Of a stretch of DNA of 64,000 bases, positions 7,035 to 40,577 are shown in pieces. Position numbers and translations under genes: made by a program. Under the pieces are notes generated by a model, which saw nothing but the letters and a program-made list of their open reading frames with translations, did not search any database and was not told where the DNA came from. Origin of the DNA: Acidobacteriaceae bacterium (GTDB taxonomy: Bacteria; Acidobacteriota; Terriglobia; Terriglobales; Acidobacteriaceae); assembly GCA_003134655.1 (NCBI GenBank), contig PLBY01000149.1, positions 1 through 64,000 on the forward strand, written 5' to 3'. The first letter of the stretch is position 1, and each line of letters begins with the position of its first letter.

Positions 7035-9368
7035 TCACAGCGACCTGGCTTTAGGGGGAAAGGTTACGGTCCGGCTGGCCCCAGCCCGAAGATCGATTCG
7101 CGGACAATCAACCAAGTAATTCTGCCCCAGAATCCGCTTTGCCTCCGTGGAGTCTTCACACATGACTTTCACGGAAGCATCAAAGGAAGTGGGATTGGTG
7201 AGCGTCAGGATGAGTTCTTTTCCCTTTTGCTCGCAAACCGAAACATCAATGTGGTCGATGGCACAGAAGAAACCGGTATCCGGTTGCACATACAGGCCGG
7301 GAATCTCGACGTAGGTCAACATGTTTGAGACCTCAGCCCATGTAGACTGGTAGAAAATCTCACCAATCGGCTCGAGCCAGTCGCTCAACTGCACGCGCTC
7401 ATTGATCCAACCCGCTGGCATCTTCCCGACAGGACGCTCTGAACGCGAAAGATACTGTGTCAGGTTGTGGGCCAATTCCTGGATCATTTCCAGGTAGAGT
7501 TTACGGCCGGTGTACCGATACAGCTTAAAAAGCGAGTTTCCGGAAAGAGTGCAAATCCCCGGAGCACCATGCTTATTCTGGGCGTTGGCAAAAACCGAAC
7601 CCGCGGAATGCATGTTTAACCTGCCAAAAAGGGTGTGCGGTGGAAACTGGAAATCATACGAAACCATCCACGTCGCACACTGATGCGCCATCTCGGTGGC
7701 ACGTCGCAGCCACTTCGGATCGCCCGAAACCTCATATAAGACGACGAACGATTCGAGCAAGCCGAAAGAAGATTCGCTGTCCGGACACTGGCAGGCTTCG
7801 CCAGGCCCACCTGTAGATAGCCCTCGGCTTACGTAATGCTCGTAGTAGGAATCAGCGGCATCAGCGGCTACGCGCAGATATTCTGGTTGCTTGAAGTACC
7901 CGCCAGCGAGCGCCAAACCAGCCGGAGCAATGCCAGCAGCGGTGGAACCACCGACGATTACATCCCCGGTATCGATGTCCACGAACTGACCGAACTGCCC
8001 GAACTTGGTCCATGTCCGCACAAACGCATCCGCGCACCGGCGAGTTCCTTCCCTCCACGCGGGCGAGGGCTTCGGGCCGTCGGATTGCGCATCCAGGAGC
8101 AGGAACTGCTTCACCATGAAATAAAGTGAATCGGCGCTCTTGCGCGTCATAACCCACTTCGTTGCGTGGGGCTTCTCAAATCCGTCACTGTACCACTTGC
8201 CTTCATGTTCGACACCACGAAGATAACCGGAGGTCCCCGTACCGGCCGAAAAAACGAAATCAAAACTCTTGAACACACGTTCGCGGGAGATGTCATCCCC
8301 CTCAATCAAGAGCGGGTAGGTAGCCATGAGTCCGCCAGTCCAGCCCGGCTGCCAGTCCTCATATCGGTCCGTCCGCATGCCCACGGCATAGTAGCCAAGG
8401 TCATCCACCCAGTTGTAGCGGTACTTCTCTTCTTGAATCTTCCATGCGGCAGAAAAAGGTAACTGATGATAAAGCTTGACACCGCCCGACAAATCCTTGC
8501 GGATCTCGACAAAGCGGTCAAACAGAGCTTGAACCGCCGCACAAGGAAACGAATAGATTCGACAATGGAGGTGGACTTCGTCCCCAGGCTGAAAATCGGC
8601 TCCCCGGTCATCCGAAGGCTGTTTTGTTGTGCACAGATGATACTTGTATTTCTCCCTGACATGGGGTGCGGTCAGGGTGATGGAAGCGCGATCGCGGCTG
8701 GAACTCTCTTCAATGCCCAGTCCGGTGTCGCCCAAGCGCGTACTCTGATCCGTGAGCAACCAGAAGCCCTGCTTGGTATCGGGAGCATAAAATCCGATTG
8801 CCGGTGTGGACATGTCCCCACTTAGGAGCTGCACTTTCGAAGGACCGGCAGCAAGGTTGAGCCGGGGCACATCGGAGATAATCGTCGGCACATTCGGGCC
8901 GATGTCCTTGGGATCGGTCAGCAGTGGGGGATAGTCCAGATGCCGCGATTCAAACCGATTGCCGTTATACAACGCGGCAGGAATCAAGACATAGTTGTCG
9001 GTTGACCAGCGATCCACGGTGAGGACAACGCCAACGCTCTGATTCTTTGGCGATCCCTGAGCTACTTTGAAATTCAGCACCAAATCAATGGCGTCCAGCC
9101 GGTCTGGCACCGGCGCCACGGTGTAATCGCAAACCCATTCGGCGCCTGCGAACTTGAGCGAGAGCGTACCAGACCCCGCCAGAGGCGATGTGGCTTGGTC
9201 GATGAGCTGGGTACCATCGTAGCGCGCCAGCCGAACATGAACCCCGTTCGCAGGAGTCTCTTGAGAGGCTGCGGCCATGGCCCCCGAAGGCTGTAGAGCC
9301 TCCGCCAGCAGTGTCATCCCGCCCAAGGACAACCCAAAGAAATCTCTTCGCGACACTTCTTGATTCAT
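7035..9368 (-). CDS. secreted six-hairpin glycosidase-like protein
   Basis: About 777 residues from the ATG at 9368, chosen because a twin-arginine motif (SRRDFFG, Arg at 7-8) then sits near the N terminus; an upstream in-frame ATG exists at 9416. After the Tat signal come about 300 residues of beta-sandwich character, then a long helical region (about 330-680: WVDDLGYYAVG, GWTGGLMATYPLL, ESSFGLLESFVVLYEVSG, AHQCATWM) typical of (alpha/alpha)6-barrel glycosidases, and a short beta-domain at the end. I cannot place it in a numbered CAZy family; a hydrolase or lyase acting on released oligosaccharides is inferred. It is the last gene of module A, 51 bp after the beta-helix gene. Confidence 0.65.
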   Translation of the reverse strand: MNQEVSRRDFFGLSLGGMTLLAEALQPSGAMAAASQETPANGVHVRLARYDGTQLIDQATSPLAGSGTLSLKFAGAEWVCDYTVAPVPDRLDAIDLVLNFKVAQGSPKNQSVGVVLTVDRWSTDNYVLIPAALYNGNRFESRHLDYPPLLTDPKDIGPNVPTIISDVPRLNLAAGPSKVQLLSGDMSTPAIGFYAPDTKQGFWLLTDQSTRLGDTGLGIEESSSRDRASITLTAPHVREKYKYHLCTTKQPSDDRGADFQPGDEVHLHCRIYSFPCAAVQALFDRFVEIRKDLSGGVKLYHQLPFSAAWKIQEEKYRYNWVDDLGYYAVGMRTDRYEDWQPGWTGGLMATYPLLIEGDDISRERVFKSFDFVFSAGTGTSGYLRGVEHEGKWYSDGFEKPHATKWVMTRKSADSLYFMVKQFLLLDAQSDGPKPSPAWREGTRRCADAFVRTWTKFGQFGQFVDIDTGDVIVGGSTAAGIAPAGLALAGGYFKQPEYLRVAADAADSYYEHYVSRGLSTGGPGEACQCPDSESSFGLLESFVVLYEVSGDPKWLRRATEMAHQCATWMVSYDFQFPPHTLFGRLNMHSAGSVFANAQNKHGAPGICTLSGNSLFKLYRYTGRKLYLEMIQELAHNLTQYLSRSERPVGKMPAGWINERVQLSDWLEPIGEIFYQSTWAEVSNMLTYVEIPGLYVQPDTGFFCAIDHIDVSVCEQKGKELILTLTNPTSFDASVKVMCEDSTEAKRILGQNYLVDCPRIDLRAGASRTVTFPPKARSL

Positions 9369-9419
9369 AGATACTCTAACGTTGCTAATAGAAGCGCGGA
9401 ACCACGACAATTTCATGCT

Positions 9420-10574
9420 TCACTTACAAGCTGGCCAGCCGGTCTGCGTCGAATACGAAGATCTAGCCACGCAGTTCCTGGGCGGGGAAATTAGGGGCGA
9501 CGGCATCTTTGTTTCAGGAGGGGTGAGCAGCTTTTGGGCGGCTGCGTCCCAAGTATTGCCGTGTCGCGTAAGCGGGTGGCATCCGCCGCCATACCAAAAT
9601 GAGTTATAAGTGCCGTCCTTGAGTATCTCGGTGGCGATGTTGTGGGTAACGGCCACTGGGCCGCATGCCTCTGAGTATTGGTTCCACACGTACATGGCCG
9701 TGTTTCCGCCTCCGCTTATTGGAACTGTTTCGAAAAGCTCATTGTGGTCCACCAACTGATTGGTGCCACTTGCAATGCCAATACCGCATTCGCCGGTGTC
9801 GAGCAGCTGGTTACCAAGGAACAGAACGCTGTTTGCGCCCTCGTCAGCGATCAGCCCGCATCCCGACAGGCTATGCCCGCCCGTGATGTAGTTGTTGCTG
9901 GCAAGAAAACCTGTGCCCATCCCGAAGTTGATGGAGTCCTCCTGGTCGTCCGCATACAGATACTTCGTTTTGTCCCGGCTGCTCAGCGTGTAGTTGTTCA
10001 GTACAACCACGTTGGTCGCATCCCACGCCTGAACGTTTTGGCCTCTGTAAGACGGATTCCCGCCGCGAGGATTGAGAAGGAAATTTCCGACGACCGTCAC
10101 ACCAGCCACGGTTCCAGTTGCTCCATTGGCTTCGATATTGGATTCGCCATAGGCGATCACATTGCCTCGGATTGTGACCTGAGACGTACCGTCCACGAAC
10201 ACGCCGTCATTGTTATCACAACAGTCGTTGGGATTGGGATCATGGGTCTCGGTATGGATGTAGTTGTCGAAGATATAGATACCGCTGGTCACGGGGGCAC
10301 TGCTGTTGTAAATGTGAATGCCGTTTCCGCCACACGGCCCGATCTGGGAATCCTCGATGGTGATGTTGGTAGAGTCTATGATCACAACGCAGTCTATCGG
10401 TACGCCGTTTTCCTTACCAGAAGTGGTGATGTTCAAACCCGAATGGACCTGGTTACTCTCATTTTTGATGACAAGCTGTCTGCTGGCTTGAGCAAGCGCC
10501 GCCGCCCCAAGGACAAGAATACAGGTAAAGGGGAACATCGCCAGAATACGCGCTGAAAAACGTTGCTTGGACAT
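9420..10574 (-). CDS. secreted right-handed beta-helix protein (module A)
   Basis: A 384-residue protein with a signal peptide (about 1-30) and about ten parallel-beta-helix turns (TNITIEDSQIGPCGGNGIHI, VTIRGNVIAYGES, VTVVGNFLLNPRGGN, VVVLNNYTL, FLASNNYITGGHS). The C terminus has a proline-rich linker (TKMPSPLISPP) and a short Cys-containing tail (YSTQTGWPACK). Two paralogues at 28.8-29.9 and 30.0-31.2 kb share the rungs and the tail. Beta-helix folds of this type are found in polysaccharide lyases, epimerases and GH28-like hydrolases, but no catalytic set is recognisable here. It lies 30 bp after the TonB-dependent transporter gene, so the two are probably co-transcribed; a glycan-binding or processing role on the surface is inferred. 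Confidence 0.75.
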   Translation of the reverse strand: MSKQRFSARILAMFPFTCILVLGAAALAQASRQLVIKNESNQVHSGLNITTSGKENGVPIDCVVIIDSTNITIEDSQIGPCGGNGIHIYNSSAPVTSGIYIFDNYIHTETHDPNPNDCCDNNDGVFVDGTSQVTIRGNVIAYGESNIEANGATGTVAGVTVVGNFLLNPRGGNPSYRGQNVQAWDATNVVVLNNYTLSSRDKTKYLYADDQEDSINFGMGTGFLASNNYITGGHSLSGCGLIADEGANSVLFLGNQLLDTGECGIGIASGTNQLVDHNELFETVPISGGGNTAMYVWNQYSEACGPVAVTHNIATEILKDGTYNSFWYGGGCHPLTRHGNTWDAAAQKLLTPPETKMPSPLISPPRNCVARSSYSTQTGWPACK

Positions 10575-10604
10575 CGCTGATGCCTCGCGTAAACAAGGTC
10601 GAGG

Positions 10605-13600
10605 TTAGAAGCTGAGCTTTGCTCCGAGCTGAAGGTTCCGGCTGCCGGGGTTTGAGAAGGACCCGGCGGTGGACGTGATGGTTCCGGTTGTGCCGTCGCC
10701 GATATTTGGATCGGGCATTCCGAAGTTGGGGTGATTGAAGGCATTGTAAGCATCCACTCTCATCTCCAGATCGCCACGTTCGCCAATCTTCTTGATCCCG
10801 AAATGTTTCGCCAGTGAAAGATTCACGGCTCTATAGTCTGGGCCCCGGAGAATGTGCCGTGTGGAGTCGCCGAATGTATTCAGGCCCGGCGAGATGAAGG
10901 CCGTCGGATCGAACCAAAGGGTGGGGGTTGGGTGCGCGAGAGTTCCGTTACCCACGCGATTCGGGTACTGAACGCCGGCGAGAGCGAAAGTGAGGTTGTC
11001 GGCCATGACTGGAGTGAAAGGAAGACCTGAATGAACCTGGAAGGTGCTGGAGAGTTGCCATCCCCCCAGGAACCCGTTCACGAGACCGCCGCGGTTGAGC
11101 ATCTTCCTCCCCTGACCAAAGGGCAACTCATACACGACATTGCCGTTCAGCAGACGCGGGACGTCGAAAGCCGCGAGACCGTAGTTGGCGCCCGGATCGT
11201 ACGCATTCTGGTAGGATTCGTCTTGGACATTCCCCGACCAGCCCTGCGTCGTGATTTCGTCTTGTGCTTTCGAAAACGTGTAATTGACACGGAACGACAA
11301 GCCGTGCGAGACAAGGGTTCTAGCGCTCAGTTGGAGAGAGTGATAGTTGGAGATTCCATCATACAAATTGGCCCCGATCCCGTTGAATTGCGGATAGGGC
11401 CGGGTGCCCGTTCCCAACAACGCCTCTGGCACCTGGTCGATGTCCCTCGGGAAGAGCAGGTGGACTCCTCGACTGCCGACGTAAGCAACATCAAGGCCTA
11501 TATGCCCCAGAATCTGATGCTGGATGTCTAAGTGCCACTGCTGAATGTAGGCTGGAGGAGTGTCATATGGGAGGTAAGTGATCCCCTGCCCGTTCAACCC
11601 GCCCGGCGTCCGCGCGGCAGCGCTTGGGTAGTAAACCGATCCCGAAGGCGGCCCTTGGGCTAAAGGAAAAACGGGAGTTACGAAATCAGGTGAGGTAAGT
11701 GATCCCCCGATGCCCCAGCCCGGAGCCCAGCCGCTGGTATAGTTGTTCGCGCCCGTCATCATCTGGAAAATTCCGTATGCGCTGCGCACAGACCAGGTAT
11801 CCTTCGGCGACCATGCGAACCCAATCCGTGGCTGATAGAGGCTAGTAGTCTGTTGCTGCGCTCGCGGGCAGGAGTGTCCGCCAAAAGTCTGGCCGGCAAA
11901 ACACACCGCTCCAAGCGTCCCGGTGCCCGGATTTAGCAAAGTCGGATCGAAATTCGCAATGCGATTCTGAACTTCCGTCCATCCCGACTGGCGTGCGTAC
12001 CGCAATCCGAGATTCAAGGTCAGGTGCGGTTTCATCTTGTAATCGTCCTGCACGAAGGCATGCACGTTCCAATCCCTCAGCCCGGTCTCCGGCGCGATAC
12101 CTACTCCCCAGTTATCGGGCAACCCCAGTAGGAAATCTGCATAACCAGTTATAGGAGGAGGGTTAGATCCAGCTTGCTCAGCCGGGTTCATAGTGAAGAC
12201 CCCGCTGAAGTCGTAGTCGCCGGAATCCATGTTCGCCCAAGCCTGATTGTCCTGGTACCTGTTGAACTCACCACCAAACTTGAAAACGTGCTTCCCTTTG
12301 AGCCAAGTCACCGTATCGGAGTACATGAAGGCGTTTGAAACGAGCGACGCGTGAAGGCCGCCACCGATACCGGTTGTAACTGCCCCGCCAATTCCGATGT
12401 TGGGAAAGGTATCTGACAGCGGATTTGGAAGGCCGATCTTTGCCGGGAATCCTTGCCCCTGGTCAGGCGTCGACCAGATCCCAAATTGCCGGAGGAAGGA
12501 GACCCTGGCTTCATTCACAAGTCCCGGACCGGCCGACCAGGTTTCAGTGATCTGCATCTGACTTTCCTTGCCCACGGAACTTTGGCACCCGCTACCACCG
12601 CCGGTCCCCATAGGACAGGTTGGGGAGGGATTGAAGCTATTGCCCGGGTTGAACATGAACGAACCCGACAAACGATTCTTCGCGGACACGTCGTAGTCGA
12701 TCTTGCCGTTGTAGGAAATGCTGAGGTTAGTGTTGCGCGCATTGTAGTAGTAGTTGTTGCCCACTCCCGCTGGCAGTCCAGGGACGTTAGGGAGAGGAAG
12801 ATAGGCTTGGATTGCCTTCGCTACCGGATCGATTCGATTCGCCGGGATGATGTTGCCCGGGAACACAGTGCGTGTCTGGGTTGCGGGATTGTAAGTGTTG
12901 GGGTCATAAATAGTTGGCAGACTAGGGTCGGAAAAATCGGCGTCCCCCTGGGGGTTGGTTAGCCCCTTCATGGCTGCAGTCGGGAAAGTGTAGTAAGTGG
13001 GTGTATCGGCGATGCTAGGATTCCTCTGATAGCTAAAGAAGAAAAAGGCCTTATTGCGGAGAATTGGGCCACCGATCGTGCCCCCAAACATATGCCAGCG
13101 TAGCGGCGTCGTAGATTGTGCGAAGTAGTTGCGCGCCTCGAATATGTCGTTCTGCAGAAACTCGTAGAGGGAGCCATGGAACTGGTTGCCTCCACTCTTG
13201 GTGATCACATTGAAGACGGCCACGCCACTTCCATACTCGGCGCTGAAATTGCTCGTGTTCAGATCGACCTCCGCGATGTCATCGAGCGGCACCATCTGCC
13301 CAGGATTCTGGCTTATCGGCAAGGTGTTCACCCCGCCGTCAACCAGCCAGTTCTCCTGCCAGGCTGCCGCCCCATTTACACCGACACTCTGGCCGGACGC
13401 GTCTTGCTCAGAGCCGCCGGGATTCACCCCTGGCAACTGGCCAAGGATGTCGAACCAACTGCGTCCGAAGTTGGGCAGGTCGTTGACAGTTTTCTCGACA
13501 AACACGGTACTCCGGTCTGAGGTCTCGGTTTGAACCAGCGGAACGTCCGCCGTCACAACGACGCTTTCCATGGCGGAGCCAACGTTCAGCACCGCATCGA

Positions 13601-13943
13601 CCGTGATCACCTCGACGTGCAAGGCAATGCCCCGTCGAACGAATTTCTTAAACCCTCCCTTGGAAAACTCGATCGAGTATTGGCCAGTCTCCAGCAGAGG
13701 CGCGTCGTAAAAACCGGCCTCACCAGTAACCACTGTGGTGGTGATTCCAGTGTCCGTATCTGTGACGACAACTTTAGTACCGCTTACTCGGGCTCCACTG
13801 GAATCGGTAACTGTGCCCCGGATCTCGCCCGTGTTGCGGTTCTGGGCGAAAAGTAAAGAAGTAAACGGCAGTATGAATAGAAGGGCCAGAAGTATGCTGC
13901 GTCGTAGTTTGCCTGGCTGCTTGCCTCTGGGACTCCGCGACAT
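10605..13943 (-). CDS. CarbReg-type TonB-dependent transporter (module A)
   Basis: A 1112-residue outer-membrane transporter. In order: signal peptide (about 1-34), a carboxypeptidase-regulatory-like Ig domain (about 36-120: NTGEIRGTVTDSSGARV, GFYDAPLLETGQYSIEF), a plug domain (about 130-250: TVNDLPNFGRSWFDIL, LVDGGVNT, IAEVDLNTSNFSAEYG), and a 22-strand-type barrel ending in the outer-membrane signature LQLGAKLSF with terminal Phe. This is the acidobacterial Oar-like type. AAGGAG lies 8-9 nt before the ATG. Downstream neighbours (beta-helix, glycosidase-like) point to a glycan substrate. A partner SusD gene is absent. A LacI-type dyad lies about 92 bp upstream. Confidence 0.9.
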   Translation of the reverse strand: MSRSPRGKQPGKLRRSILLALLFILPFTSLLFAQNRNTGEIRGTVTDSSGARVSGTKVVVTDTDTGITTTVVTGEAGFYDAPLLETGQYSIEFSKGGFKKFVRRGIALHVEVITVDAVLNVGSAMESVVVTADVPLVQTETSDRSTVFVEKTVNDLPNFGRSWFDILGQLPGVNPGGSEQDASGQSVGVNGAAAWQENWLVDGGVNTLPISQNPGQMVPLDDIAEVDLNTSNFSAEYGSGVAVFNVITKSGGNQFHGSLYEFLQNDIFEARNYFAQSTTPLRWHMFGGTIGGPILRNKAFFFFSYQRNPSIADTPTYYTFPTAAMKGLTNPQGDADFSDPSLPTIYDPNTYNPATQTRTVFPGNIIPANRIDPVAKAIQAYLPLPNVPGLPAGVGNNYYYNARNTNLSISYNGKIDYDVSAKNRLSGSFMFNPGNSFNPSPTCPMGTGGGSGCQSSVGKESQMQITETWSAGPGLVNEARVSFLRQFGIWSTPDQGQGFPAKIGLPNPLSDTFPNIGIGGAVTTGIGGGLHASLVSNAFMYSDTVTWLKGKHVFKFGGEFNRYQDNQAWANMDSGDYDFSGVFTMNPAEQAGSNPPPITGYADFLLGLPDNWGVGIAPETGLRDWNVHAFVQDDYKMKPHLTLNLGLRYARQSGWTEVQNRIANFDPTLLNPGTGTLGAVCFAGQTFGGHSCPRAQQQTTSLYQPRIGFAWSPKDTWSVRSAYGIFQMMTGANNYTSGWAPGWGIGGSLTSPDFVTPVFPLAQGPPSGSVYYPSAAARTPGGLNGQGITYLPYDTPPAYIQQWHLDIQHQILGHIGLDVAYVGSRGVHLLFPRDIDQVPEALLGTGTRPYPQFNGIGANLYDGISNYHSLQLSARTLVSHGLSFRVNYTFSKAQDEITTQGWSGNVQDESYQNAYDPGANYGLAAFDVPRLLNGNVVYELPFGQGRKMLNRGGLVNGFLGGWQLSSTFQVHSGLPFTPVMADNLTFALAGVQYPNRVGNGTLAHPTPTLWFDPTAFISPGLNTFGDSTRHILRGPDYRAVNLSLAKHFGIKKIGERGDLEMRVDAYNAFNHPNFGMPDPNIGDGTTGTITSTAGSFSNPGSRNLQLGAKLSF

Positions 13944-16023: not shown

Positions 16024-16115
16024 TGTTATTGAGGCTCCCCTAGTCAACGTCACCCACGAAGATCAAGCGGTCGCCACCTACACTGATATAACTCTTCTCG
16101 AAACCATGCTAGCTT

Positions 16116-17282: not shown

Positions 17283-17597
17283 ATCGTGTACTCGGTTCTC
17301 CGCAATTAGAATAAAGTAGTGCGAGTTCCTCAGCTCTTTCGATCGCCTGTTGGGGTCTGGGATCACGATCATAGTGGCAGACCCTCCACGCGATCAATGC
17401 CATGCGCGTCGCGACTGCCATCGATGACCATGGCTTGATGACAGAAATCGTAGGTGTTCTCGTTCAGAATGATGAGTGACACTCGAATCGAGCGTCGAAA
17501 TGGAAAGAGGGACTTTCTCGTATCCTCTTTACGGAGTTGCCGGCTCTCAAAGGCGGACGGAATTCTGCGGACCACGGCAATATGTGATAATTGCCTT
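17283..17597. other. divergent intergenic region TPR / LacI
   Basis: Lies between the minus-strand TPR gene and the plus-strand LacI gene. The first 30 bp next to the TPR start closely resemble the sequence before the module B TPR gene, so the duplicated segment extends slightly upstream of that gene. No operator dyad was seen by eye. Confidence 0.4.
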
Positions 17598-21322: not shown

Positions 21323-21348
21323 CATTCGGTCTTGGGAGACTTTGAACT

Positions 21349-22374: not shown

Positions 22375-22395
22375 ACTTGAGGATTTGCGGTCAGA

Positions 22396-28660: not shown

Positions 28661-28754
28661 TTCTTCACACAATCCTCATTTAGTTCGCATGCGATGTAGA
28701 GCTGTCGAGCTTCGTTCTGCCTTGGCCCATGCCAGAATCGGCAACTCGAACCGT

Positions 28755-31192: not shown

Positions 31193-31255
31193 TGCAGTCC
31201 TCCTTTTGACCAGAAATGATTCCGTTGCAATACGTATCTACGAGACTGGAAGAAC

Positions 31256-34200
31256 CTAGAAGCTGAGCTTGGCTCCTACCTGTAGGTTCCGGTTCGTGTT
31301 GGCGGACGTGATGGTCCCTTCTGAGCCGCTGCCGATATGTGCGTTCGGCTGCCCGAAGTTGGGATGATTCGCGATGTCGTAGACATCCACTCTCATCTCT
31401 AACCGGCCACCTTCGCCCAGCTTTTTGAGAGCGAAGTGCTTGGCCAGCGACATGTTCACGGTTCTCCACTTTGGGCCTCGGAGAATGTCCCGTCTCGAGT
31501 CGCCGTAAGCGTAATCCGTCGTCACCCCGCCAATGACGGCAGTCGGCTGGACGAAGCACGAGTCCTCGAACCACCCCATATCAGGAATTGGATTCCCGGA
31601 TGAGTCGGTTGGAGCACTGGAGATGGCATGGGGATGGGAGAGTGTGCCGTTGCACACGCGGTTCGGCCACTGCGCGCCACCGTTGATAGCTCCACTAGCG
31701 TTAGAGTTCATAAGCGGAGTGAACGGCAGACCCGAGTGAACCTGGAAGACGCCGGACAGCGTCCATCCGCCCACCAAGCTGTTCAGGGTACCGCCTCGGT
31801 TCAGCAGTTGCTTCCCTTTTCCTAAGGGCAGTTCGTACACTGCCGATCCGCTCCACAACTGCGGAACGTCATAGCTGGCCACGGCATACATGGAGCGCGG
31901 ATTGTACGAGTTTTGCCAGCTACCACTGTCAGACGTACAGCACGAACCCGGCGAGGTGAACTCATCCATCGCCTTGGAGAACGTATAATTGACCCGGAAA
32001 GTCAGGCCATGCGAGACCATGGTTCGGGCGCTGAGCTGAAGAGAGTTGTAGTGGGATATTCCGTCGTACAGATTGGCGGGGATCCCCCCGTTCGGGTATT
32101 GGGGATATGGCAGACAGGCCAATTCCGCTGTCGGGTCCGTTTGTGCCAGCGCCAGACATGACTCAGGAGTTTGGTCGATTTGCCGGGCGAACAACAGATG
32201 CTTTCCGCTGCTGCCCACATAGGCCGCGTCCAGGCCTACGCGTCCAATCTGATGCTGGATGTCGAGAGAGTACTGCTCCACATAAGCAGCCTTCGCGTGA
32301 TACTGCATCCAATACGTTCCTTGCCCATTCAATGACTCAGGCTGGCGCGCAGCAGGTCCTGGGTAGAGAATCGCCCCCTGCGGGATGCTTGGAGTTGACA
32401 ACGTGAAGACGGGGCCAACATTTTCCGGAAATGTAGGAAGGTACAGGATGTTGTTAGGCGTGCCAATCGAGCCACTAGTCTGGAAACCTGCAGGAAACGT
32501 ATTGAAATAGTTGTTTCCTCCCCACATCTCGGTAAACGTTCCGTATCCGCCGCGAACTGACCACTTCTCCTTCGGCGACCAGGCAAAGCCGATTCTTGGC
32601 TGAAAGATGTCTTTCACCGTCGCAATCTGCGCGGTAGGACAATGGTATGTGCCGACGCTTGTGCTGAACGTCACGCCGGCATAGCAGTTGGCGCCATACC
32701 CGGGGGCAAAGTTGCTCTGACCACTGGGATCGGTGGGATTGATTCCTGAATTCCACAAATCCGGAGTGAAATTCGCCCACATCTTCTTGGCTTCCGACCA
32801 TCCCGACTGCATCAGGTAACGCACGCCCAGATTCAAAGTCAGGTGCGGTGTAATCTTGTAGTCGTCGTTGGCAAAGGCCTGCACGTTCCACGCCCTGCCC
32901 CCAACTTCAGGCGTAATAGATACGCCCCAACCGTCGGTTAAACCCAACAGGAAGTCGGCGTAGCCGAGTGCCTGCTTATTCGGGTCCATGGGGTTTGACG
33001 TATAGTACCCGGCAAAGTCGTAGTCGCCGGAATCCAGGTTGGCCCATGCCTGGTTGTCTTGCCAACGGTCGAACTCGCCGCCGAACTTGAGGATGTGCTT
33101 TCCCTTCGACCAGGTGAGCGTGTCAGAGTACATGTAGCTGTTAAATCCGAGTTTGGCCGAGAGACTGGTATTGAGACTGGTCCCGGCCGCTCCCCCGATA
33201 TTGATGTTGGGAAAGACATCCGATTGTCCTGCAAAGAGCTGGATTCCAACCTTCGCCGGGAACCCTGCCCCCACATCCGGCGATTTCCAGAGTCCGTATT
33301 GTCGAAGGAAAGAAATCCTGGCCTCATTCACCAGTTTGGAACTGACCGTCCAGGCATCGGTAATCTGCGCCTGACTACCCTGGCCACTCTGGTATGAACA
33401 GGCACCGCCACCCGCTGAAATCGGACAAGCCGGGCCCGGACTCTTGCTGTTCCCCGGGTTGAACATGGCTGAGCCCGACATGCGGTGTGAGGATGACACG
33501 TCGTAGTCAACCTTGAAATTGTAGGAAATCGAGTGGTTGGTGTTCACCGTATTCGAATAATAGTTGTTGGAAGGTATTCCGGGCCCGTTTGGGACAGCAG
33601 GAAAATAAGCTTGGAGTTTAGCCGCTACCGGGTCGAAGCTGGTCGTCGGCGGCATCACGTTCAACTGGCCGTTGTACTGGAATGGCATGCGGCAGGTCAC
33701 TCCGTTGACGACTTGAGTCGTGGACGGATCGTAGATTTGACCTAACAACATCGGTTGGTTATTGCAGGGGTTGACAGCCTGCAGGCCAGTTGTGGGATCG
33801 ATGTCAGGCCCTCCCAGAAAGGCCGAAAAGTCACCCTGCTTCATGGCTGGCGTCGGGAAAGTATAAAAAGAGGGCGAATAAGTGATGTTGGGATTGTCCT
33901 GAAGGCTGAAGAAGAAGAAAGCTTTGTTGTGCACAATCGGACCGCCGAGAGTGCCGCCGAACATGTGCCAACGAAGAGGTGTGACCGAAGTCGCGAAGTA
34001 GTTGCGCGCCTCGCCCAAGGCGTCGTTCTGCTCGAAGTCGTATAGCGATCCGTGGAACGTATTGCCGCCGCTCTTGGTGATCACGTTAAGAGCCGCCACG
34101 CCACCTCCGTACTCGGCGCCGAAGTTGCTTGTGCTCATGTCCACTTCAGCGATGTCGTCCAGGGGCACCGTGTTTCCTGGATTCTGGCTTACCGGCAGCG

Positions 34201-34828
34201 TCGTTACGCCGCCATCGGTCAGGAAGTTCTCCATGTAGCCGGGGTTTCCGTTGACCCCAAACCCCGCGCCAGAAGCATCCTGCCCGGCACCGGTCGAGTT
34301 GCCGCCGGGATTCACGCCCGGGAGTTGGAGGGTAATGTCAAACCACGAGCGACCCACATTCGGCAACTCGTTGATCGTGTCGCTGCTAAGCACGACGGTC
34401 CGACCTGATGTCTCGGTCTGGACCAAAGGAACATCCGCAGTTACCGAGACCGTCTCGCTAATCGCACCCACGACTAGCACGGCGTCGACCGGGACGGGTT
34501 CGACGTGCAGCGTGATGCCGCGGCGAACGAACTTCTTGTACCCTTCCTTGGAGAACTGGATCGTGTACGTTCCGATCTCCAGCAGAGGTACGTCGTACGT
34601 GCCGGTCGCATCGGCCACGGCTTTGGTGACGATGCCGGTGTCTGGATTCGTAACCACAATACTGACTCCGGCGACCCGGGCTCCGCTGGAGTCGGTGATC
34701 GTTCCCCGGATTTCGCCTGTGTTCCGGTTCTGGGCAAAAAGCGAAGAAGTAAGTGACACTGCGAACAGAAGGGCCACTAGCACGATGCAGGATTGTTCGC
34801 CTAGCTTGCCTCTGGGACTCTGCGACAT
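31256..34828 (-). CDS. CarbReg-type TonB-dependent transporter (module B)
   Basis: 1190 residues, paralogous to the module A transporter and about 80 residues longer, mainly by inserts in the barrel loops. Signal peptide about 1-33; carboxypeptidase-regulatory-like domain (RNTGEIRGTITDSSGARV, GTYDVPLLEIGTYTIQF); plug (NELPNVGRSWFDITLQLPG, DDIAEVDMSTSNFGAEYG); barrel closing with NLQVGAKLSF. AAGGAGG lies a few bases before the ATG. The GH3 gene upstream is only 28 bp away and the beta-helix gene downstream 63 bp, so they are likely one transcript. Probable cargo: a deoxyhexose-bearing or beta-linked oligosaccharide. Confidence 0.9.
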   Translation of the reverse strand: MSQSPRGKLGEQSCIVLVALLFAVSLTSSLFAQNRNTGEIRGTITDSSGARVAGVSIVVTNPDTGIVTKAVADATGTYDVPLLEIGTYTIQFSKEGYKKFVRRGITLHVEPVPVDAVLVVGAISETVSVTADVPLVQTETSGRTVVLSSDTINELPNVGRSWFDITLQLPGVNPGGNSTGAGQDASGAGFGVNGNPGYMENFLTDGGVTTLPVSQNPGNTVPLDDIAEVDMSTSNFGAEYGGGVAALNVITKSGGNTFHGSLYDFEQNDALGEARNYFATSVTPLRWHMFGGTLGGPIVHNKAFFFFSLQDNPNITYSPSFYTFPTPAMKQGDFSAFLGGPDIDPTTGLQAVNPCNNQPMLLGQIYDPSTTQVVNGVTCRMPFQYNGQLNVMPPTTSFDPVAAKLQAYFPAVPNGPGIPSNNYYSNTVNTNHSISYNFKVDYDVSSSHRMSGSAMFNPGNSKSPGPACPISAGGGACSYQSGQGSQAQITDAWTVSSKLVNEARISFLRQYGLWKSPDVGAGFPAKVGIQLFAGQSDVFPNINIGGAAGTSLNTSLSAKLGFNSYMYSDTLTWSKGKHILKFGGEFDRWQDNQAWANLDSGDYDFAGYYTSNPMDPNKQALGYADFLLGLTDGWGVSITPEVGGRAWNVQAFANDDYKITPHLTLNLGVRYLMQSGWSEAKKMWANFTPDLWNSGINPTDPSGQSNFAPGYGANCYAGVTFSTSVGTYHCPTAQIATVKDIFQPRIGFAWSPKEKWSVRGGYGTFTEMWGGNNYFNTFPAGFQTSGSIGTPNNILYLPTFPENVGPVFTLSTPSIPQGAILYPGPAARQPESLNGQGTYWMQYHAKAAYVEQYSLDIQHQIGRVGLDAAYVGSSGKHLLFARQIDQTPESCLALAQTDPTAELACLPYPQYPNGGIPANLYDGISHYNSLQLSARTMVSHGLTFRVNYTFSKAMDEFTSPGSCCTSDSGSWQNSYNPRSMYAVASYDVPQLWSGSAVYELPLGKGKQLLNRGGTLNSLVGGWTLSGVFQVHSGLPFTPLMNSNASGAINGGAQWPNRVCNGTLSHPHAISSAPTDSSGNPIPDMGWFEDSCFVQPTAVIGGVTTDYAYGDSRRDILRGPKWRTVNMSLAKHFALKKLGEGGRLEMRVDVYDIANHPNFGQPNAHIGSGSEGTITSANTNRNLQVGAKLSF

Positions 34829-34856
34829 ATACCCTCCTTATGCCAAACAATAGCCG

Positions 34857-37436
34857 TTAGTCAGTTCTCGTGACTCCTACCATAAGCGGCGTATCCTCGG
34901 AGGAGTCGCCAACGAAGATAGTGAAGTTCCCCGGATCAATCTGCCAATCATTAGCCGCTGTACTCCAGTATGCGAATCGACGCCAGTCGAGCGAGACTGC
35001 GATATGCTGTTTTTTGCCAGGAGCGAGCCGAACTTTCGTAAAGGCTCCCAGCTCTTTGTCGGGCCGCTTGACTTTGGCGGATGGATCTCCGACATACACC
35101 TGCGCAACGTCGGCACCGCTCCGCTCCCCGGTGTTGGTCACATCGAAAGAGACTTCGACATTCTCATGCTTCGCAGGAGATGCCGGTGTCACACGTAAAT
35201 TGCTGAATGCGAAAGTTGTATAGGAAAGACCGTAACCAAACGGGAACAGTGGCTTCTTACCGTAAGTCGTGTAATAGCGATAGCCGACAAAGACCCCTTC
35301 GGCATATTTGATGCGGGGCACTTCCCCTTTACTCACCGGAGGAGCGTAGTAATTGTCATGGACTGGACTATCCTCCCAAGATTGCTCAAAGCTCACAGGC
35401 AGGTGACCCTCTGGCGAGCGCTCACCAAACAGAATCTCGCTCACCGCCCGGGCGCCCTCTTGACCGGGATACCAGTCGTGAAGCAGCGCTGGCACATTTG
35501 CCAGCCAACGGCGCATGACGACATTGCCTCCTCCCGTAAGGATGACAATGGTATTTCTATTCGAATGCGCCATGGACTCTATCAGCAGATCCTGACCCCA
35601 AGGCAAAGCAAAACTCCGGTCCAGGCCTTCTTGCTCTGTTGCGGGGTCGAAGCCGACCGAAACCACTACTGCGTTTGCCGTGGCCGCGATACGCTTCGCC
35701 TCGGGGGAGATAAGCTCATCAACTGCACGGATGCCCAGACTCATGCGGTTACGGGCAGAGCTCGGCAAGTAGTCGAGCTGAATGTGGACAGGCTTGCCAG
35801 CGGTTAGCGGCAGATCTACAGAGACTGGGAATTGCAGTTCGTGCTGAGGTTGCCAATGGAATTTCTGCTCGCCATCGACCAGCAAAGTATAGGCGTCTTG
35901 ATCCTTCCCCTCCATTAGAAACATGTAGTTTCCGGTCTTTTCTGGCGTGTAAACCGCGGAGTAGCGGATGCTTCTTGTGTCCAGAGCAATTGGCGGTTGG
36001 TCTTCCGAAACACTGTCGATTCGCCGGGTGCTCCATATGCCTGGGGTGCCACTAAAATCCGGCGTACTGAAAGCCTCTATCTTGACAGTCCGTGGCCCCG
36101 TCCAAATGTCGTTGTGTGCCGCTTTTTCAATCGCTGTTCCAAACTTAGTTTGTTTAAAAACTTCTCCAGCTGTGGGCAGACCTCGCGCATAAAGAACCTT
36201 TGTGTGCTCACCCAAATAGTCGCCAAGGCCAGCCATTAGGCTGACCGCGGTATACGGAGTAACACTGGAACTACCGCCGCCTCCCGTCACTGCCGGCCAA
36301 GCATCGGGGCCTATCACGGCAAGAGTGTGCATGTTGCTTGCATCAAGCGGCAGAACATTGTGCTCATTTTTTAGAAGTACAACGCTTTCGCGTGCGGTAT
36401 CGAGTGCGACTTTACGGCTTGCCGGGTTGTTTAGGGGAATTTCGATGTCTGTCTGATCGCGGTCCAAAAATCCGAAACGGATTGCCGTCCGGAAAATTCG
36501 TCGAACCTTGTCGTCGATCACCGATTCAGACACTTTTCCACTCCGAACGGCCGGCAAGAGCCTAACCAGATTCATGCATTTGCCAGAGGGCATCTCCAAA
36601 TCTAGCCCGCCATTGGCTGCCGCGACCCCGTCATATGTTGATCCCCAGTCCGACATCAAAATACCGTCAAACCCCCACTCCTTCTTCAGGATATCCACGT
36701 TCAAGTGCGCATTCTGCGTGGCATGTTCACCATTCACCAGATTCAAGGCATCCATGACCGACCCGACGTGTGCCTCTTTAACAGCCGCTTCAAATGCCGG
36801 CAGATAAAGTTCGCGGAGCGCGCGTTCGTCGACATCAGAGCTCACTTCGTACCGGTTGTACTCTTGATTATTTGCCGCAAAGTGTTTAACAACGGAAATC
36901 ACACCCTGAATTTGCACCCCTTCGATATATGGAACTGCTATCCGCGCAGCCAAAAAAGGGTCCTCGCCGAAATATTCGAAGTTTCGGCTATCCATAGGAG
37001 CCCGGGCGATGTTCACGCCTGGAGCCAGGAGGAAGTGGACTCCACGTGCGCGCGCGTCTTGTCCGAGTGCCACGCCCATACGCCCGGCCAGCGTTGGATC
37101 CCAAGAAGCCGCCAACGCAATACCTCCGGCATAGGCTGTTGATGGCCCCCACGTCTGCAGGCCTTCGGGCCCGTCCGACATCTTCAATTGTGGGAAAGCA
37201 AGCGCAGGCTCAGCGCGAATGTACGAGTCGTTGTAGCCGCCAATTAATTCAATCTTCTGCTCTAGAGTCAGCTTGGACACCATCATATCCACTCGATGCT
37301 CTATGGCAGGGCTATTCGGAACGGGTGTCTGCGCAAAGCAGGACGCGCCACAAACCAATAAAATCGCAGCATTCACGATGAGCACGAACTGAGCAACCAA
37401 TGAAGAAAACTGGCGGGGCAGCAGTGGTTTTACCAA
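34857..37436 (-). CDS. secreted GH3 beta-glycosidase with PA14 insert
   Basis: 859 residues; the outermost start is a TTG at 37436, with a GTG at 37385 as an alternative leaving a shorter signal peptide (cleavage after about residue 36, CFAQ). N-terminal GH3 barrel (GPEGLQTWG, GVNIARAPMDSRNFEYFGEDP, SVVKHFAANNQE) with the nucleophile Asp263 in GILMSDWGSTYDG. A PA14-like carbohydrate-binding insert (about 450-560: YTPEKTGNYMFLMEG, AYTLLVDG) interrupts the second domain, TEQEGLDRSFALP carries the acid/base region, and a fibronectin-like domain ends the protein. A copy of the GntR-type palindrome core lies about 24 bp upstream. It sits between CRTAC1 and transporter, a gene with no counterpart in module A. 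Confidence 0.9.
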   Translation of the reverse strand: MVKPLLPRQFSSLVAQFVLIVNAAILLVCGASCFAQTPVPNSPAIEHRVDMMVSKLTLEQKIELIGGYNDSYIRAEPALAFPQLKMSDGPEGLQTWGPSTAYAGGIALAASWDPTLAGRMGVALGQDARARGVHFLLAPGVNIARAPMDSRNFEYFGEDPFLAARIAVPYIEGVQIQGVISVVKHFAANNQEYNRYEVSSDVDERALRELYLPAFEAAVKEAHVGSVMDALNLVNGEHATQNAHLNVDILKKEWGFDGILMSDWGSTYDGVAAANGGLDLEMPSGKCMNLVRLLPAVRSGKVSESVIDDKVRRIFRTAIRFGFLDRDQTDIEIPLNNPASRKVALDTARESVVLLKNEHNVLPLDASNMHTLAVIGPDAWPAVTGGGGSSSVTPYTAVSLMAGLGDYLGEHTKVLYARGLPTAGEVFKQTKFGTAIEKAAHNDIWTGPRTVKIEAFSTPDFSGTPGIWSTRRIDSVSEDQPPIALDTRSIRYSAVYTPEKTGNYMFLMEGKDQDAYTLLVDGEQKFHWQPQHELQFPVSVDLPLTAGKPVHIQLDYLPSSARNRMSLGIRAVDELISPEAKRIAATANAVVVSVGFDPATEQEGLDRSFALPWGQDLLIESMAHSNRNTIVILTGGGNVVMRRWLANVPALLHDWYPGQEGARAVSEILFGERSPEGHLPVSFEQSWEDSPVHDNYYAPPVSKGEVPRIKYAEGVFVGYRYYTTYGKKPLFPFGYGLSYTTFAFSNLRVTPASPAKHENVEVSFDVTNTGERSGADVAQVYVGDPSAKVKRPDKELGAFTKVRLAPGKKQHIAVSLDWRRFAYWSTAANDWQIDPGNFTIFVGDSSEDTPLMVGVTRTD

Positions 37437-37456
37437 AAGGCACCTTTAATTGCAAT

Positions 37457-37475
37457 CATCTGTTAATAACAGCGT
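37457..37475. promoter_or_regulatory. second copy of GntR-type palindrome, before GH3
   Basis: CATCTGTTA-A-TAACAGCGT: the left arm is identical to the palindrome before the GntR gene at 46644, and the 13-bp core CTGTTAATAACAG (37460-37472) is perfect; only the last three bases of the right arm differ. It lies 20 bp before the GH3 start codon. The match, about 9 kb from the regulator, suggests that GntR controls the GH3-transporter transcript. Confidence 0.65.
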
Positions 37476-37632
37476 ATCTGTAGCACTGACCTCTCCCGAT
37501 TGTCAAGACGAAAGTTCTGTCGCATGGCAAGACAAGAAGGCGCTGACTTCTGCCTAGCCAAAGTCGCTGAAGTAGCGGGAGGGACTCAAACACTCTTCAC
37601 CCCATGCTCCCACCGTAAGCCGCGCTTTTGCA

Positions 37633-39339
37633 TCACTTGGGCTCAACGACGCGCAGAACATGATCCGCGGCCACATGGGTAAGTACCTGGACTTTTCCTG
37701 ACGGCCAGCGAATCGTAATCTCGTCCGCCATTTTTTCAGCACCCAGCCCAAAGTGAACCGGGCCTGCGCTCGACGAGCCATAACCCGAGGCCGTCGTCAC
37801 ATGGTTGAATTGAGCATGTCCGCCCGCCACCAGCCGAATCTGCGCCCCGATTCCATCGCGATTGCTCTTGGTGCCTTGCAGCGCCAGTTCGAGCCAGTGG
37901 TTGCTGTTGGATCTGTCATTGATCCAGATTTCAGCGGGCGCGCCGATTGCGGTCACCACCAGATCAAGTTTGCCATCGTGATTGAAATCGCCAAAGGCAG
38001 ATCCACGATGACGCTTCGGCGGTTGGGAGGCAAAGCCCGCTTCCGCTGTAAGTGCGGACCACTTATTTCCCTGGATGTTACGGAAAACCGTGTTCGGCTG
38101 ATTCACCGCGACACGACCTGCGACGTTCGGTGATGCAACGTCCCCGCGACTAACGAAGATGTCCTTCCAACCGTCATTGTCAAAGTCGGCGATGTTCGGA
38201 CTGTACCCGGACATTGGAGTGCTCAGCAGTGTCATGCCACTCTTGCCCGTGATTTCCGTAAAGCCGCCTTTGCCCGTGTTTTCGTAAACTGGGAAGGTTT
38301 CGTTCTGCAAGGCGACAATCGAGATGTCCGGGTATCCATCGTTGTTAAGGTCGCGAAAATCGACTCCCATACTGGAGATGACATTGCCGTTGTCAGGTAG
38401 CGCCACTCCGGCCTCAGCCGCGACCTCTTCGAAGCGGCCGCTTCCCTTGTTATGGAATAGGAAATTGGGTAGCTTATCGTTAGCAATAAAGATATCGGGG
38501 AGTCCATCGCCGTCGTAGTCGGCGACACCGACGCCCATGCCCTTCCCCGGATACGCCCGGATGCCCGCCTGTGCCGATATATCCGCAAAAGTGCCGTCTC
38601 CGTTGTTGAGGAAGAGTTGGTTAGGTAGCGGTTTGTAAAACCTCGGGTGACAGTAGTCCGGTTTGCCGTCGATCTCGCAGTGAGGTTCTTTTGCGGCCTC
38701 CCAACTCACGTAATTCACCACAACAAGGTCCAGCAGCCCGTCATTGTTGATATCCACCCAGGCGCCACCGACCGACCAGAGCGACCCAAACTCTTTGTCG
38801 GGATGGTTCAGTCCCGCTTTTTCGGTGACGTCCGTGAAGGTACCATCGCGGTTGTTGTGGTACAACGTGTTGCGATACACACCCGCGACAAATATGTCTT
38901 CATATCCGTCATTGTCATAGTCGCCGATCGCAACACCCGTGTCATACCCGGTTCCGGCAAGCCCTGCTTTTTCGGTTACATCCGTAAACGTACCGTCGCC
39001 ATTGTTATGGAAAAGCCGGTTCCAATATCTCTGCGACGTTTTCTTGAGGCCAGAGATATCGGCGCCGTTGGTAAAAAAGATGTCCGGATTGCCGTCGTTG
39101 TCGTAGTCAAATACGGCAACGCCACCCGCCATAGTTTCCGGCGCGTGCTTCTCAGCGGTTTCGCCGCTGTCTAGCGAGAATGGAATCGAGCGAAAAAAGA
39201 AATGAATGGGAGCTGTGCTCTCTTCTGTCCCGCTGGGCAGCTGCCATGGAATGGCGGGCGCCACAGGGCGATCCGCGGCTAGGATCAAACCTAAGAGAAC
39301 CGCACATCGCAAAGCTGTTCGAGCTAACTTGCTAGGCAT
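37633..39339 (-). CDS. CRTAC1-like FG-GAP/ASPIC-UnbV protein (module B)
   Basis: 568 residues, exactly the length of the module A copy and identical to it at roughly nine residues in ten by eye, with long near-identical DNA stretches. Same architecture: signal peptide, calcium-loop FG-GAP blades (FDYDNDGNPDIFF, GDYDNDGYEDIFV, ADYDGDGLPDIFI), ASPIC/UnbV end domain (GIGAQIRLVAGG, ITIRWPSGK). The function is unknown; surface or periplasmic partner of the TPR protein and transporter is inferred. It follows the TPR gene by 71 bp. Confidence 0.9.
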   Translation of the reverse strand: MPSKLARTALRCAVLLGLILAADRPVAPAIPWQLPSGTEESTAPIHFFFRSIPFSLDSGETAEKHAPETMAGGVAVFDYDNDGNPDIFFTNGADISGLKKTSQRYWNRLFHNNGDGTFTDVTEKAGLAGTGYDTGVAIGDYDNDGYEDIFVAGVYRNTLYHNNRDGTFTDVTEKAGLNHPDKEFGSLWSVGGAWVDINNDGLLDLVVVNYVSWEAAKEPHCEIDGKPDYCHPRFYKPLPNQLFLNNGDGTFADISAQAGIRAYPGKGMGVGVADYDGDGLPDIFIANDKLPNFLFHNKGSGRFEEVAAEAGVALPDNGNVISSMGVDFRDLNNDGYPDISIVALQNETFPVYENTGKGGFTEITGKSGMTLLSTPMSGYSPNIADFDNDGWKDIFVSRGDVASPNVAGRVAVNQPNTVFRNIQGNKWSALTAEAGFASQPPKRHRGSAFGDFNHDGKLDLVVTAIGAPAEIWINDRSNSNHWLELALQGTKSNRDGIGAQIRLVAGGHAQFNHVTTASGYGSSSAGPVHFGLGAEKMADEITIRWPSGKVQVLTHVAADHVLRVVEPK

Positions 39340-39410
39340 TGTTATTGTCGGCTAACTACTCCACGTCTCACACGAAGAGCGAGTGGTTGCTATCTCATTG
39401 CTATCACTCG

Positions 39411-40577
39411 CTAGTTCGAGGGTGGCGCCTGCTGTAGCGCCTTTTGCAGCTGATTCTGGACCTTCTGCAACTCCTGGAAAGCCGCCAGCTCCCGGTCTGC
39501 CTCTTGGATCTGTCCCAAGCTGCGATAAAGGACGGCAAGCCTGTGTCGCACCTCAGCGTTATATGGCTCTGAACGGGCGGCCGATTGCAGATAGCCCAAG
39601 GCCTCTTGTGTCTTGCCTTCGTCTATGAGCAGCCCGGCTAATCCGAGTTTCGCACACACGATCTCGGGGTTCAGCTTAAGCGCCCTCGAATAGTGATTGG
39701 ACGCTGCCGTCGGACTTGACCGCCAGATCTCAATCTTGCCCAGCTTGCACTCGGACTTTGCATCACTTGGGTTCAGGGCGAGGGCGCTCTCAAACTGCTC
39801 TTGTGCCTTCGCAAGGCTCGGTTCTAGATGGGAATCCGCGAGCAGGGCCTCGCCTAGTTCGTAGTGCACACCCGCCACGCCAGGAGCGTTTTCGAGAGCC
39901 TTCTGGTATTCGTCGATCGCCTCCTGCGCGTGCCCGTCATTCACCATATGCTCCGCCAAAGCCCGGTGGAGCTGGACCGAATCCGGTGCGGCCAACGCCA
40001 GTGAATCGATAGCTTGGAAAGCCAAGTCAGAGTGGAGGCGATAGGCAGCATATAGCACAGCAGCATTGGCCGGATAGAATTTCTGCAGTTGGCTGAGAAC
40101 CATGCTGGCCTTCTCGAGCTCGCCGCTTTGATACCAGGCCTCGACTAACTGCAACCCGGCCTCCAGTCGCAGCTTCGGATCTTCTATATGCGGGAAGGAA
40201 CCAGAGAGCAGTTTGGTGGCCTCCGGCAGATGCTCCAAGTGCAGGTCGCAGAGCCCCAGAAGCGCCTGCACCTTCCAACGAGAGGGTTGCAGTTTGAGCG
40301 CTTTCTCCAATTCAACCGCAGCTCCTGCCCAGTCACCCCGAACCATTGCAACCACTCCCAGGTTGGCGCGGGCTTCCACGTTGGCTGGATCGACCTTCAG
40401 GATAGCGCGGTACGCTTGCGCCGCTGCGTCGGGTCGATTCTCCTTGAGTGCTTGTTGCGCCTGCTCCATTTGATTCTTGACCTCAGTTGCATGGCGAACG
40501 GTCGCTTGGCCAAAGCCCAGAGAAGTCATGAGTAACAGCAAGCTCAGGTAACCCATCGAAACGAGTAATCTAGTCAT
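39411..40577 (-). CDS. secreted TPR-repeat protein (module B)
   Basis: 388 residues, the same length as the module A paralogue. Signal peptide (MTRLLVSMGYLSLLLLMTSLG) and about nine TPR-like repeats (PDAAAQAYRAILKVDPANVEA, GDWAGAAVELEKALKLQPS, QEAIDEYQKALENAPGVAG). Its ATG overlaps the stop of the lactate dehydrogenase-like gene by 4 bp (ATGA), so translation is probably coupled and the surface module is joined to the catabolic genes in one operon. In module A the gene starts its own transcript. Confidence 0.87.
   Translation of the reverse strand: MTRLLVSMGYLSLLLLMTSLGFGQATVRHATEVKNQMEQAQQALKENRPDAAAQAYRAILKVDPANVEARANLGVVAMVRGDWAGAAVELEKALKLQPSRWKVQALLGLCDLHLEHLPEATKLLSGSFPHIEDPKLRLEAGLQLVEAWYQSGELEKASMVLSQLQKFYPANAAVLYAAYRLHSDLAFQAIDSLALAAPDSVQLHRALAEHMVNDGHAQEAIDEYQKALENAPGVAGVHYELGEALLADSHLEPSLAKAQEQFESALALNPSDAKSECKLGKIEIWRSSPTAASNHYSRALKLNPEIVCAKLGLAGLLIDEGKTQEALGYLQSAARSEPYNAEVRHRLAVLYRSLGQIQEADRELAAFQELQKVQNQLQKALQQAPPSN

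Follow-up and report, generated by a model that had tools for sequence, protein, structure and literature searches.

Bacteroidota import glycans through SusC/SusD pairs. How glycans might be taken up without SusD is the question raised by a 64,000-nucleotide stretch of an Acidobacteriaceae bacterium (contig PLBY01000149.1 of assembly GCA_003134655.1; hereafter, the window), in which genes for a tetratricopeptide repeat (TPR) protein, a CRTAC1-type protein, a TonB-dependent transporter (TBDT) and a beta-helix protein occur twice on one strand. A sequence-only reading had proposed that these two copies form a SusD-less glycan uptake module, and that the TPR and CRTAC1 proteins, or the beta-helix protein, play the capture role of SusD. 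Gene content, recurrence, the absence of SusD from the host, folds, the co-diversification of TPR and TBDT and a shared palindrome were all determined here by computation. As judged from these comparisons, this is a real and recurrent type of SusD-free glycan locus, and the TPR protein is the best candidate for the slot of SusD. Acidobacteriota are abundant in soil. Among the open-licence papers listed by our literature searches, none was found to connect CRTAC1 with TonB transporters or to describe SusD-less glycan import in Acidobacteriota. According to an excerpt of one paper, paralogue groups of Candidatus Solibacter usitatus include the ASPIC/UnbV and TonB-receptor families, seen unlinked there (PMC3174227), and an excerpt of another names TonB receptors among upregulated proteins (PMC7074687).

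Two gene sets in the window

All ten open reading frames that had been assigned to the two sets were found in place on the minus strand. The genes of the two copies are as follows.

Copy A
17454..18608, plus strand: LacI-type regulator, divergent from copy A (Pfam LacI 1.2e-19)
16116..17372, minus strand: TPR protein A (Pfam TPR_19 1.5e-26; 418 aa, hydrophobic N-terminus, without lipobox)
14317..16053, minus strand: CRTAC1 protein A (Pfam FG-GAP_3 and UnbV_ASPIC; ASPIC 1.4e-20)
10605..13943, minus strand: TBDT A (CarboxypepD_reg, Plug, OMP_b-brl_4 at 1.3e-225)
9420..10574, minus strand: beta-helix protein A (Pfam Beta_helix; lineage-specific)
7035..9416, minus strand: putative, possibly (alpha/alpha)-barrel carbohydrate enzyme (Tat-like start by eye; sub-threshold family matches)

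Copy B
39411..40577, minus strand: TPR protein B (Pfam TPR; structure predicted)
37633..39339, minus strand: CRTAC1 protein B (FG-GAP_3 and UnbV_ASPIC; structure predicted)
34857..37436, minus strand: GH3 glycosidase (Pfam GH3_C 1.5e-50)
31256..34828, minus strand: TBDT B (CarboxypepD_reg and OMP_b-brl_4 at 1.1e-198)
30044..31192, minus strand: beta-helix protein B1 (Pfam Beta_helix)
28755..29870, minus strand: beta-helix protein B2 (Pfam)
27512..28672, minus strand: protein without family assignment at the end of copy B (no family match up to E 1)

The order in copy A is TPR, CRTAC1, TBDT, beta-helix and a 793-aa protein, and that in copy B is TPR, CRTAC1, GH3, TBDT, beta-helix, beta-helix and a 386-aa protein. 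The identical order claimed for both copies therefore holds for the four shared genes, but copy B has extra ones: the GH3 gene between CRTAC1 B and TBDT B, and the second beta-helix gene, both absent from the earlier list. Both TBDTs carry the outer-membrane barrel OMP_b-brl_4, and Plug was scored by Pfam in copy A alone. FG-GAP repeats with a C-terminal UnbV_ASPIC domain, the architecture of the CRTAC1 family, were found by Pfam in both CRTAC1 proteins. A lipobox motif scan over all the collected loci was positive for 17 of 187 CRTAC1 ORFs and 17 of 157 TPR ORFs, with some genes counted twice.

SusD and SusC in Acidobacteriota and other phyla

The absence of a SusD-like gene, claimed for the window, extends to the whole host genome by both PF07980 and PF14322. 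PF14322 was found in none of 247 genomes of the phylum and PF07980 in none of 31 relatives, with the Bacteroides control positive in both searches. PF07980 was, under the same positive control, present in 3 of the 247, all three outside the class of the window, and a total absence of SusD from the phylum was therefore rejected; the absence is near-general. In two of these three genomes (L215, L216), SusC-like tblastn matches lie close by. The window TBDTs (P0010, P0011) matched no NCBIfam family, including TIGR04056 and TIGR04057, while the TBDT of the Hymenobacter control scored 728.7 bits to TIGR04056.

Neighbourhoods from Bacteroidota and Gemmatimonadota were taken from three plasmid records, two with SusC/SusD (L206, L208) and one without (L207). 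CRTAC1 adjoins SusC/SusD in the Hymenobacter record and, by tblastn on both sides, in the Gemmatirosa record; the Spirosoma record L207 has CRTAC1 without SusC or SusD in the stretch. Among the collected loci, tblastn with Hymenobacter SusD matched only L206 and L208. Because CRTAC1 coexists with SusD in Hymenobacter and Gemmatirosa, the role of a simple replacement for SusD was rejected for it.

Recurrence of the locus

The host genome contains 27 ASPIC genes and 61 merged OMP_b-brl_4 TBDT genes, and 13 of the 27 lie within 6 kb of a TBDT, as against 3.0 expected from uniform placement (P 1.7e-6). This genome is listed at 5.23% contamination, and genome-wide counts may therefore include foreign contigs. 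TPR and CRTAC1 genes were detected by locally built profiles, and relatives were sampled as the nearest 80 from GTDB contigs (at least 80 exist). Among CRTAC1 genes with a 5 kb flank, 17 of 23 in the host genome and 23 of the 36 others had a TPR fused to them or located within 1 kb.

In a tree of 127 CRTAC1 proteins, made by a quick method from rows of at least 430 aa with a 380-residue match, the window pair falls into a clade of 33 rows (SH-aLRT 100). A TBDT is present within 5 kb in 21 of these rows, and flanks are short in 7 of the remaining 12. When at least 5 kb was required on both sides, a TBDT was found within 5 kb in 12 of 16 rows of the window clade, the two window rows included, versus 14 of 43 rows in the remainder of the tree (Fisher p 0.007, which is only a guide because the rows are related). 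By these counts, CRTAC1 genes of the wider family lie mostly away from transporters and those of the window clade mostly next to one, a mixed outcome for the refuting condition set with the earlier proposal. Within the genus, the set comprised 20 stretches surrounding the best matches, among them L158 with a length of 3.4 kb. CRTAC1 has 4.8 kb or more on each side in 13 of them, and a TBDT lies within 5 kb in 11 of these 13. In four plasmid stretches from Acidobacteriota, a TBDT-type gene is near CRTAC1 in three and not in the fourth. ASPIC itself was found in 118 of the 247 phylum genomes. The proposal of a recurrent SusD-free TBDT/TPR/CRTAC1 glycan locus is borne out by the enrichment in the clade and by examples from cultured Granulicella tundricola and Acidisarcina polymorpha.

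Enzymes around the linked transporters

In 41 loci of the window clade, the neighbour groups were headed by GH3 (10 loci), followed by LacI-like regulators (7 loci); the group names were checked by Pfam on members of each group. Individual loci encode GH31, GH3 and GH44 (L003), GH67, an FGGY kinase, a LacI-like regulator and GH3 (L014), or a melibiase (L017). By their family matches, the linked loci hold coherent, differing sets of glycan enzymes. The Granulicella tundricola cluster comprises LacI, an alginate-lyase-type gene, GH88, TPR, a multihaem cytochrome, TBDT, CRTAC1, a carboxylesterase, GH30 and two GH28-type genes, and an excerpt of a published description reports this species as a pectin hydrolyser (PMC4148992). 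That of Acidisarcina polymorpha has GH172, a CarboxypepD_reg protein, CRTAC1, TPR, LacI and fucP; the CarboxypepD_reg protein has the length of a transporter and is annotated without the word TonB. The enzyme families suggest loci of xylan, xyloglucan and pectin type.

Glycosidases are present among the first 25 families listed for neighbours of linked TBDTs (one 1889-aa protein of 50 was omitted). For unlinked TBDTs, 88 of 129 neighbours were scanned, selected by length, and the first 25 of the 87 families contained no glycosidase, so that rare or weak glycosidase matches could be hidden beyond these 25. Multihaem cytochrome c genes adjoin the TPR gene in several TBDT/CRTAC1 loci (L021:3447-4502, L181:3738-4970, L197:2154-3377 and L202:6954-8147).

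TPR as the candidate partner of the transporter

The capture role that had been proposed for TPR and CRTAC1 together gained support for TPR, by co-diversification and by a same-genus locus, but not for CRTAC1, which coexists with SusD. The matching locus of the same-genus genome G001 contains LacI, TPR, TBDT, beta-helix and GH29 genes. No CRTAC1 lies in the 57.5 kb that were covered of its 71-kb contig; close CRTAC1 genes are present elsewhere in that genome. The TPR of G001 shares 70-72% identity with those of the window, and the next among the collected loci is the TPR of L005 (36%). In a transporter tree (94 rows, FastTree), the window TBDTs are nearest to the TBDT of L005 with a local support of 100, and linked TBDTs cluster without forming a single clade.

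Protein distances were compared for genes within 6 kb, with length thresholds of 250 aa for TPR, 900 aa for the transporter and 450 aa for CRTAC1 (250 aa minimum in the host-genome test). Over ten host-genome loci, counting one window copy, TBDT and TPR distances correlated (r 0.76, p 0.0004), also when the window or L005 was dropped (r 0.47-0.50, p about 0.025). On the same loci, no correlation was seen between TBDT and CRTAC1 or between TPR and CRTAC1 (r -0.02 to 0.14, p at least 0.15). In all genomes mixed, a TPR was near 13 of 28 linked versus 5 of 41 unlinked TBDTs (p 0.002; linked transporters were counted with a 3 kb flank). Because its distances follow those of the TBDT, and because G001 keeps TPR and TBDT without CRTAC1, TPR appears to be a better candidate than CRTAC1 for the fixed partner of the transporter.

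Structures were predicted as single chains. The model of CRTAC1 B has the CRTAC1 fold, with propeller and cap, and its Foldseek matches were CRTAC1 first and then FG-GAP-type GlcNAc lectins. CRTAC1 is possibly lectin-like, as this model suggests.

Duplication history, end genes and beta-helix proteins

The TPR and CRTAC1 genes form a single sharp-ended tract (14307-17305 versus 37624-40601) with 86% DNA identity and a synonymous divergence (dS) of 0.44-0.48, while the TBDT copies and the beta-helix copies differ by a dS of about 1.3. These values, which are rough and close to saturation, indicate that the duplication has two ages, one for the TPR-CRTAC1 tract and one for TBDT and beta-helix. 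The TBDT of G001 is closer to copy B (dS 0.75) than the TBDT of copy A is (1.33), and the TPR of G001 is farther from the window TPRs (1.1, 1.3) than these are from each other (0.48). From this pattern, the divergence of the two TBDT copies probably predates the separation from G001, with copying or homogenisation of the tract coming later.

The glycosidase-like gene that was said to end each copy was not confirmed by family matches for either 7035-9416 or 27512-28672. The two are dissimilar (25% identity when forced into an alignment of 345 columns); the former has just sub-threshold matches to GlcNAc 2-epimerase, GH127 and GH47 (E 0.001-0.002). PDB sequence searches with both proteins and with the transporter gave nothing useful. 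The protein of 7035-9416 is 94% identical to its G001 copy (dS 0.19), while the G001 TPR, TBDT and beta-helix genes have dS values of 0.75-1.3; this gene was perhaps transferred recently. The beta-helix protein occurs in 1 of 247 phylum genomes, that of the window, and in 2 of 45 genus genomes. It is therefore no general part of the module. Another beta-helix gene and another GH3 gene, with PA14 and Fn3-like domains, lie within 56553-60769.

L-fucose genes and proposed regulation

Both copies adjoin L-fucose genes. The relevant features are as follows.

21349..24090, plus strand: epimerase and fucose pyrophosphorylase (best NCBIfam match of the epimerase GDP-fucose synthase, below cut-off)
25663..27129, plus strand: GH29 alpha-L-fucosidase (Pfam 6e-119)
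37459..37473, no strand: operator-like near copy of the palindrome, upstream of GH3-TBDT-beta-helix of copy B
40574..46461, minus strand: sugar catabolism run (FMN dehydrogenase, SDR, RhaT-like permease, KDPG-type aldolase, PfkB kinase, fuconolactonase-like amidohydrolase)
46643..46661, no strand: perfect 19-base palindrome with 9-base arms, between the fuconolactonase-like and FCD-GntR genes
46693..47454, plus strand: GntR/FCD regulator, proposed reader of the palindrome (Pfam FCD 1.7e-24)
49648..51795, plus strand: protein with GH141 insertion domain and beta helix (Pfam)

The fuconolactonase-like amidohydrolase scored 266.8 bits to NF052480, under the cut-off of 400. The first 4 bases of the TPR B gene are also the last 4 of the FMN dehydrogenase gene, an operon-like arrangement with the catabolic run. 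At one mismatch or fewer, the palindrome occurs only at these two places in 8.05 Mb. Both are intergenic, and each follows TTGACA, 17 bases and CTAC, as seen by eye; the promoter scan did not list these boxes (3 found versus 6.3 expected in shuffles). The palindrome at 46643-46661 faces the FCD-GntR gene and plus-strand sugar-acid genes. Through this common palindrome, copy B may be linked to the breakdown of L-fucose. A search for a LacI operator in copy A yielded no convincing palindrome.

Other members of the CRTAC1 family

TPR proteins with five CxxCH haem motifs, by motif count, directly adjoin CRTAC1, mostly in another clade (L010:8358-11261, supported by Pfam, and L041, L042, L046, L047, L060, L070, L088, L090 and L099), and a redox side of the family is possible. 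In L016:6916-10848, FG-GAP, ASPIC, AhpC/TSA and TPR domains are joined in one protein. On an Alteromonas plasmid (L209:4212-13898), an FG-GAP-like protein adjoins a PQQ dehydrogenase, a Rieske protein and a TonB receptor.

Proposed mechanism and alternatives

The explanation we favour, tentatively, is that each copy is a SusD-free glycan locus with TPR in the slot of SusD, CRTAC1 as an accessory lectin and sugar-linked regulation. Exported glycosidases (GH3, with GH29 and the GH141-type gene nearby) would trim L-fucose-containing plant or microbial glycans, and the TBDT would import the resulting oligosaccharides. TPR, as the regular partner of the TBDT in the slot of Bacteroidota SusD, would act as a lid, a docking site or a hand-off scaffold. 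CRTAC1, in which ASPIC caps an FG-GAP propeller, would concentrate the glycan and be swappable between loci. LacI in copy A and FCD-GntR in copy B would turn the genes on together with L-fucose breakdown. In this scheme we infer sugar binding, physical contact between TPR and TBDT, the location of the proteins, the substrate and the regulation. A farther-reaching version, in which a TPR superhelix replaced SusD in Acidobacteriota, co-evolving with a non-SusC TBDT while an interchangeable CRTAC1 lectin adds capture, seems doubtful to us. If true, it would mean SusD-free glycan uptake built from TPR and propeller in fucose, xylan, xyloglucan and pectin loci. The candidate TBDT/TPR/CRTAC1 partner set, with its cultured hosts, makes the question of glycan import testable; it would also provide a role for the widespread orphan ASPIC family and a way to mark glycan loci in genomes in which SusC/SusD searches come up empty.

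Several observations weigh against the favoured explanation. In the host genome, TPR and CRTAC1 were both found within 6 kb at only 11 TBDT loci, and 9 further loci have TPR without CRTAC1; therefore, most of the 61 TBDT genes lack the full set. In this genome alone, a TPR was near 3 of 10 linked versus 5 of 41 unlinked TBDTs (p 0.18). When both window copies were counted, CRTAC1 distances correlated with TBDT distances as well (r 0.40, p 0.02) and likewise with TPR distances (r 0.47, p 0.01). In a set of 40 loci drawn from many genomes, each of the three pairings was correlated (r 0.47-0.52); such extra CRTAC1 correlations are as expected from the recent tract copy and shared ancestry. Within 1.5 kb, the TPR gene was co-directional downstream in 6, divergent in 5 and co-directional upstream in 2 of 13 linked cases, and a fixed SusCD-like gene order was rejected with this mixture; we know of no SusC/SusD pairs of variable order and strand. 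No lipobox was seen by eye in the N-termini of the window TPR and CRTAC1 proteins. The TPR B model is a bare superhelix without an added sugar domain, matching plain TPR superhelices best, and SusD was not among its best 50 structural matches, which excludes nothing; lectins were not among the CRTAC1 matches listed by VIA-align. The palindrome count of two hardly exceeds that of the reversed control (one), and the palindrome is lacking in 4 of 5 same-genus genomes, the fifth having one place at one mismatch. Finally, Poribacteria and others have TPR-CRTAC1 pairs without a TBDT in the stretch.

This last observation fits a different explanation, which we regard as rather unlikely: TPR and CRTAC1 would be a general envelope pair for assembly, adhesion or redox functions, loosely associated with TBDTs that act on their own or together with different partners. 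It is favoured by the pairs or fusions that lack a nearby TBDT in several phyla, by the five-haem TPR proteins beside another CRTAC1 clade, by the AhpC/TSA domain in one CRTAC1-TPR fusion and by the mixed TPR-TBDT orientation. On the other hand, it leaves aside the above-chance proximity to TBDTs in the host genome, which is concentrated in one CRTAC1 clade, the glycan-breakdown enzymes around the loci and the diversification of TPR with TBDT. CRTAC1 might instead be the SusD-like capture protein and TPR its chaperone or anchor, as its lectin-like predicted propeller, its frequent place beside TBDTs in the window clade and the fusion of TPR to CRTAC1 in 8 of the 127 rows of the tree would allow; we consider this improbable in view of Hymenobacter and Gemmatirosa, where it accompanies SusD next to SusC, of its distances, which do not track those of the TBDT with one window copy, and of the G001 locus that does without it. 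That the transporters carry siderophores, peptides or vitamin-like compounds, with sugar genes as chance neighbours, agrees with the large number of OMP_b-brl_4 TBDTs, with the glycosidase-free first families beside unlinked TBDTs and with the non-SusC assignment by NCBIfam, but is very unlikely given the recurrent, substrate-coherent enzyme sets at linked loci and the palindrome common to copy B and the fucose genes.

Comparison with known systems

Vertebrate CRTAC1 (cartilage acidic protein 1) is an extracellular-matrix protein; compared with the murine structure 9etn, the window CRTAC1 proteins are bacterial and located in glycan loci. The fungal FG-GAP-type lectins (PVL 2bwr/4up4, AAL 4tqm and PAL 5mb4), which were the next Foldseek matches, are propellers like the window CRTAC1 but cover only its propeller part, and the likeness is in fold alone. 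The TPR superhelices of OGT (1w3b) and MamA (3vty) differ from the window TPR, which has a signal-like N-terminus and adjoins a TBDT, and has no catalytic or magnetosome context. In comparison with the Sus-type polysaccharide utilization loci of Bacteroidota, the window loci have TPR and CRTAC1 and are without SusD, a SusC-family TBDT or a lipobox partner, and gene order and strand vary among the TPR/TBDT loci. They are like the Sus-type loci in that a CarboxypepD_reg TBDT stands beside glycosidases (GH3, GH29), sugar regulators and catabolism genes.

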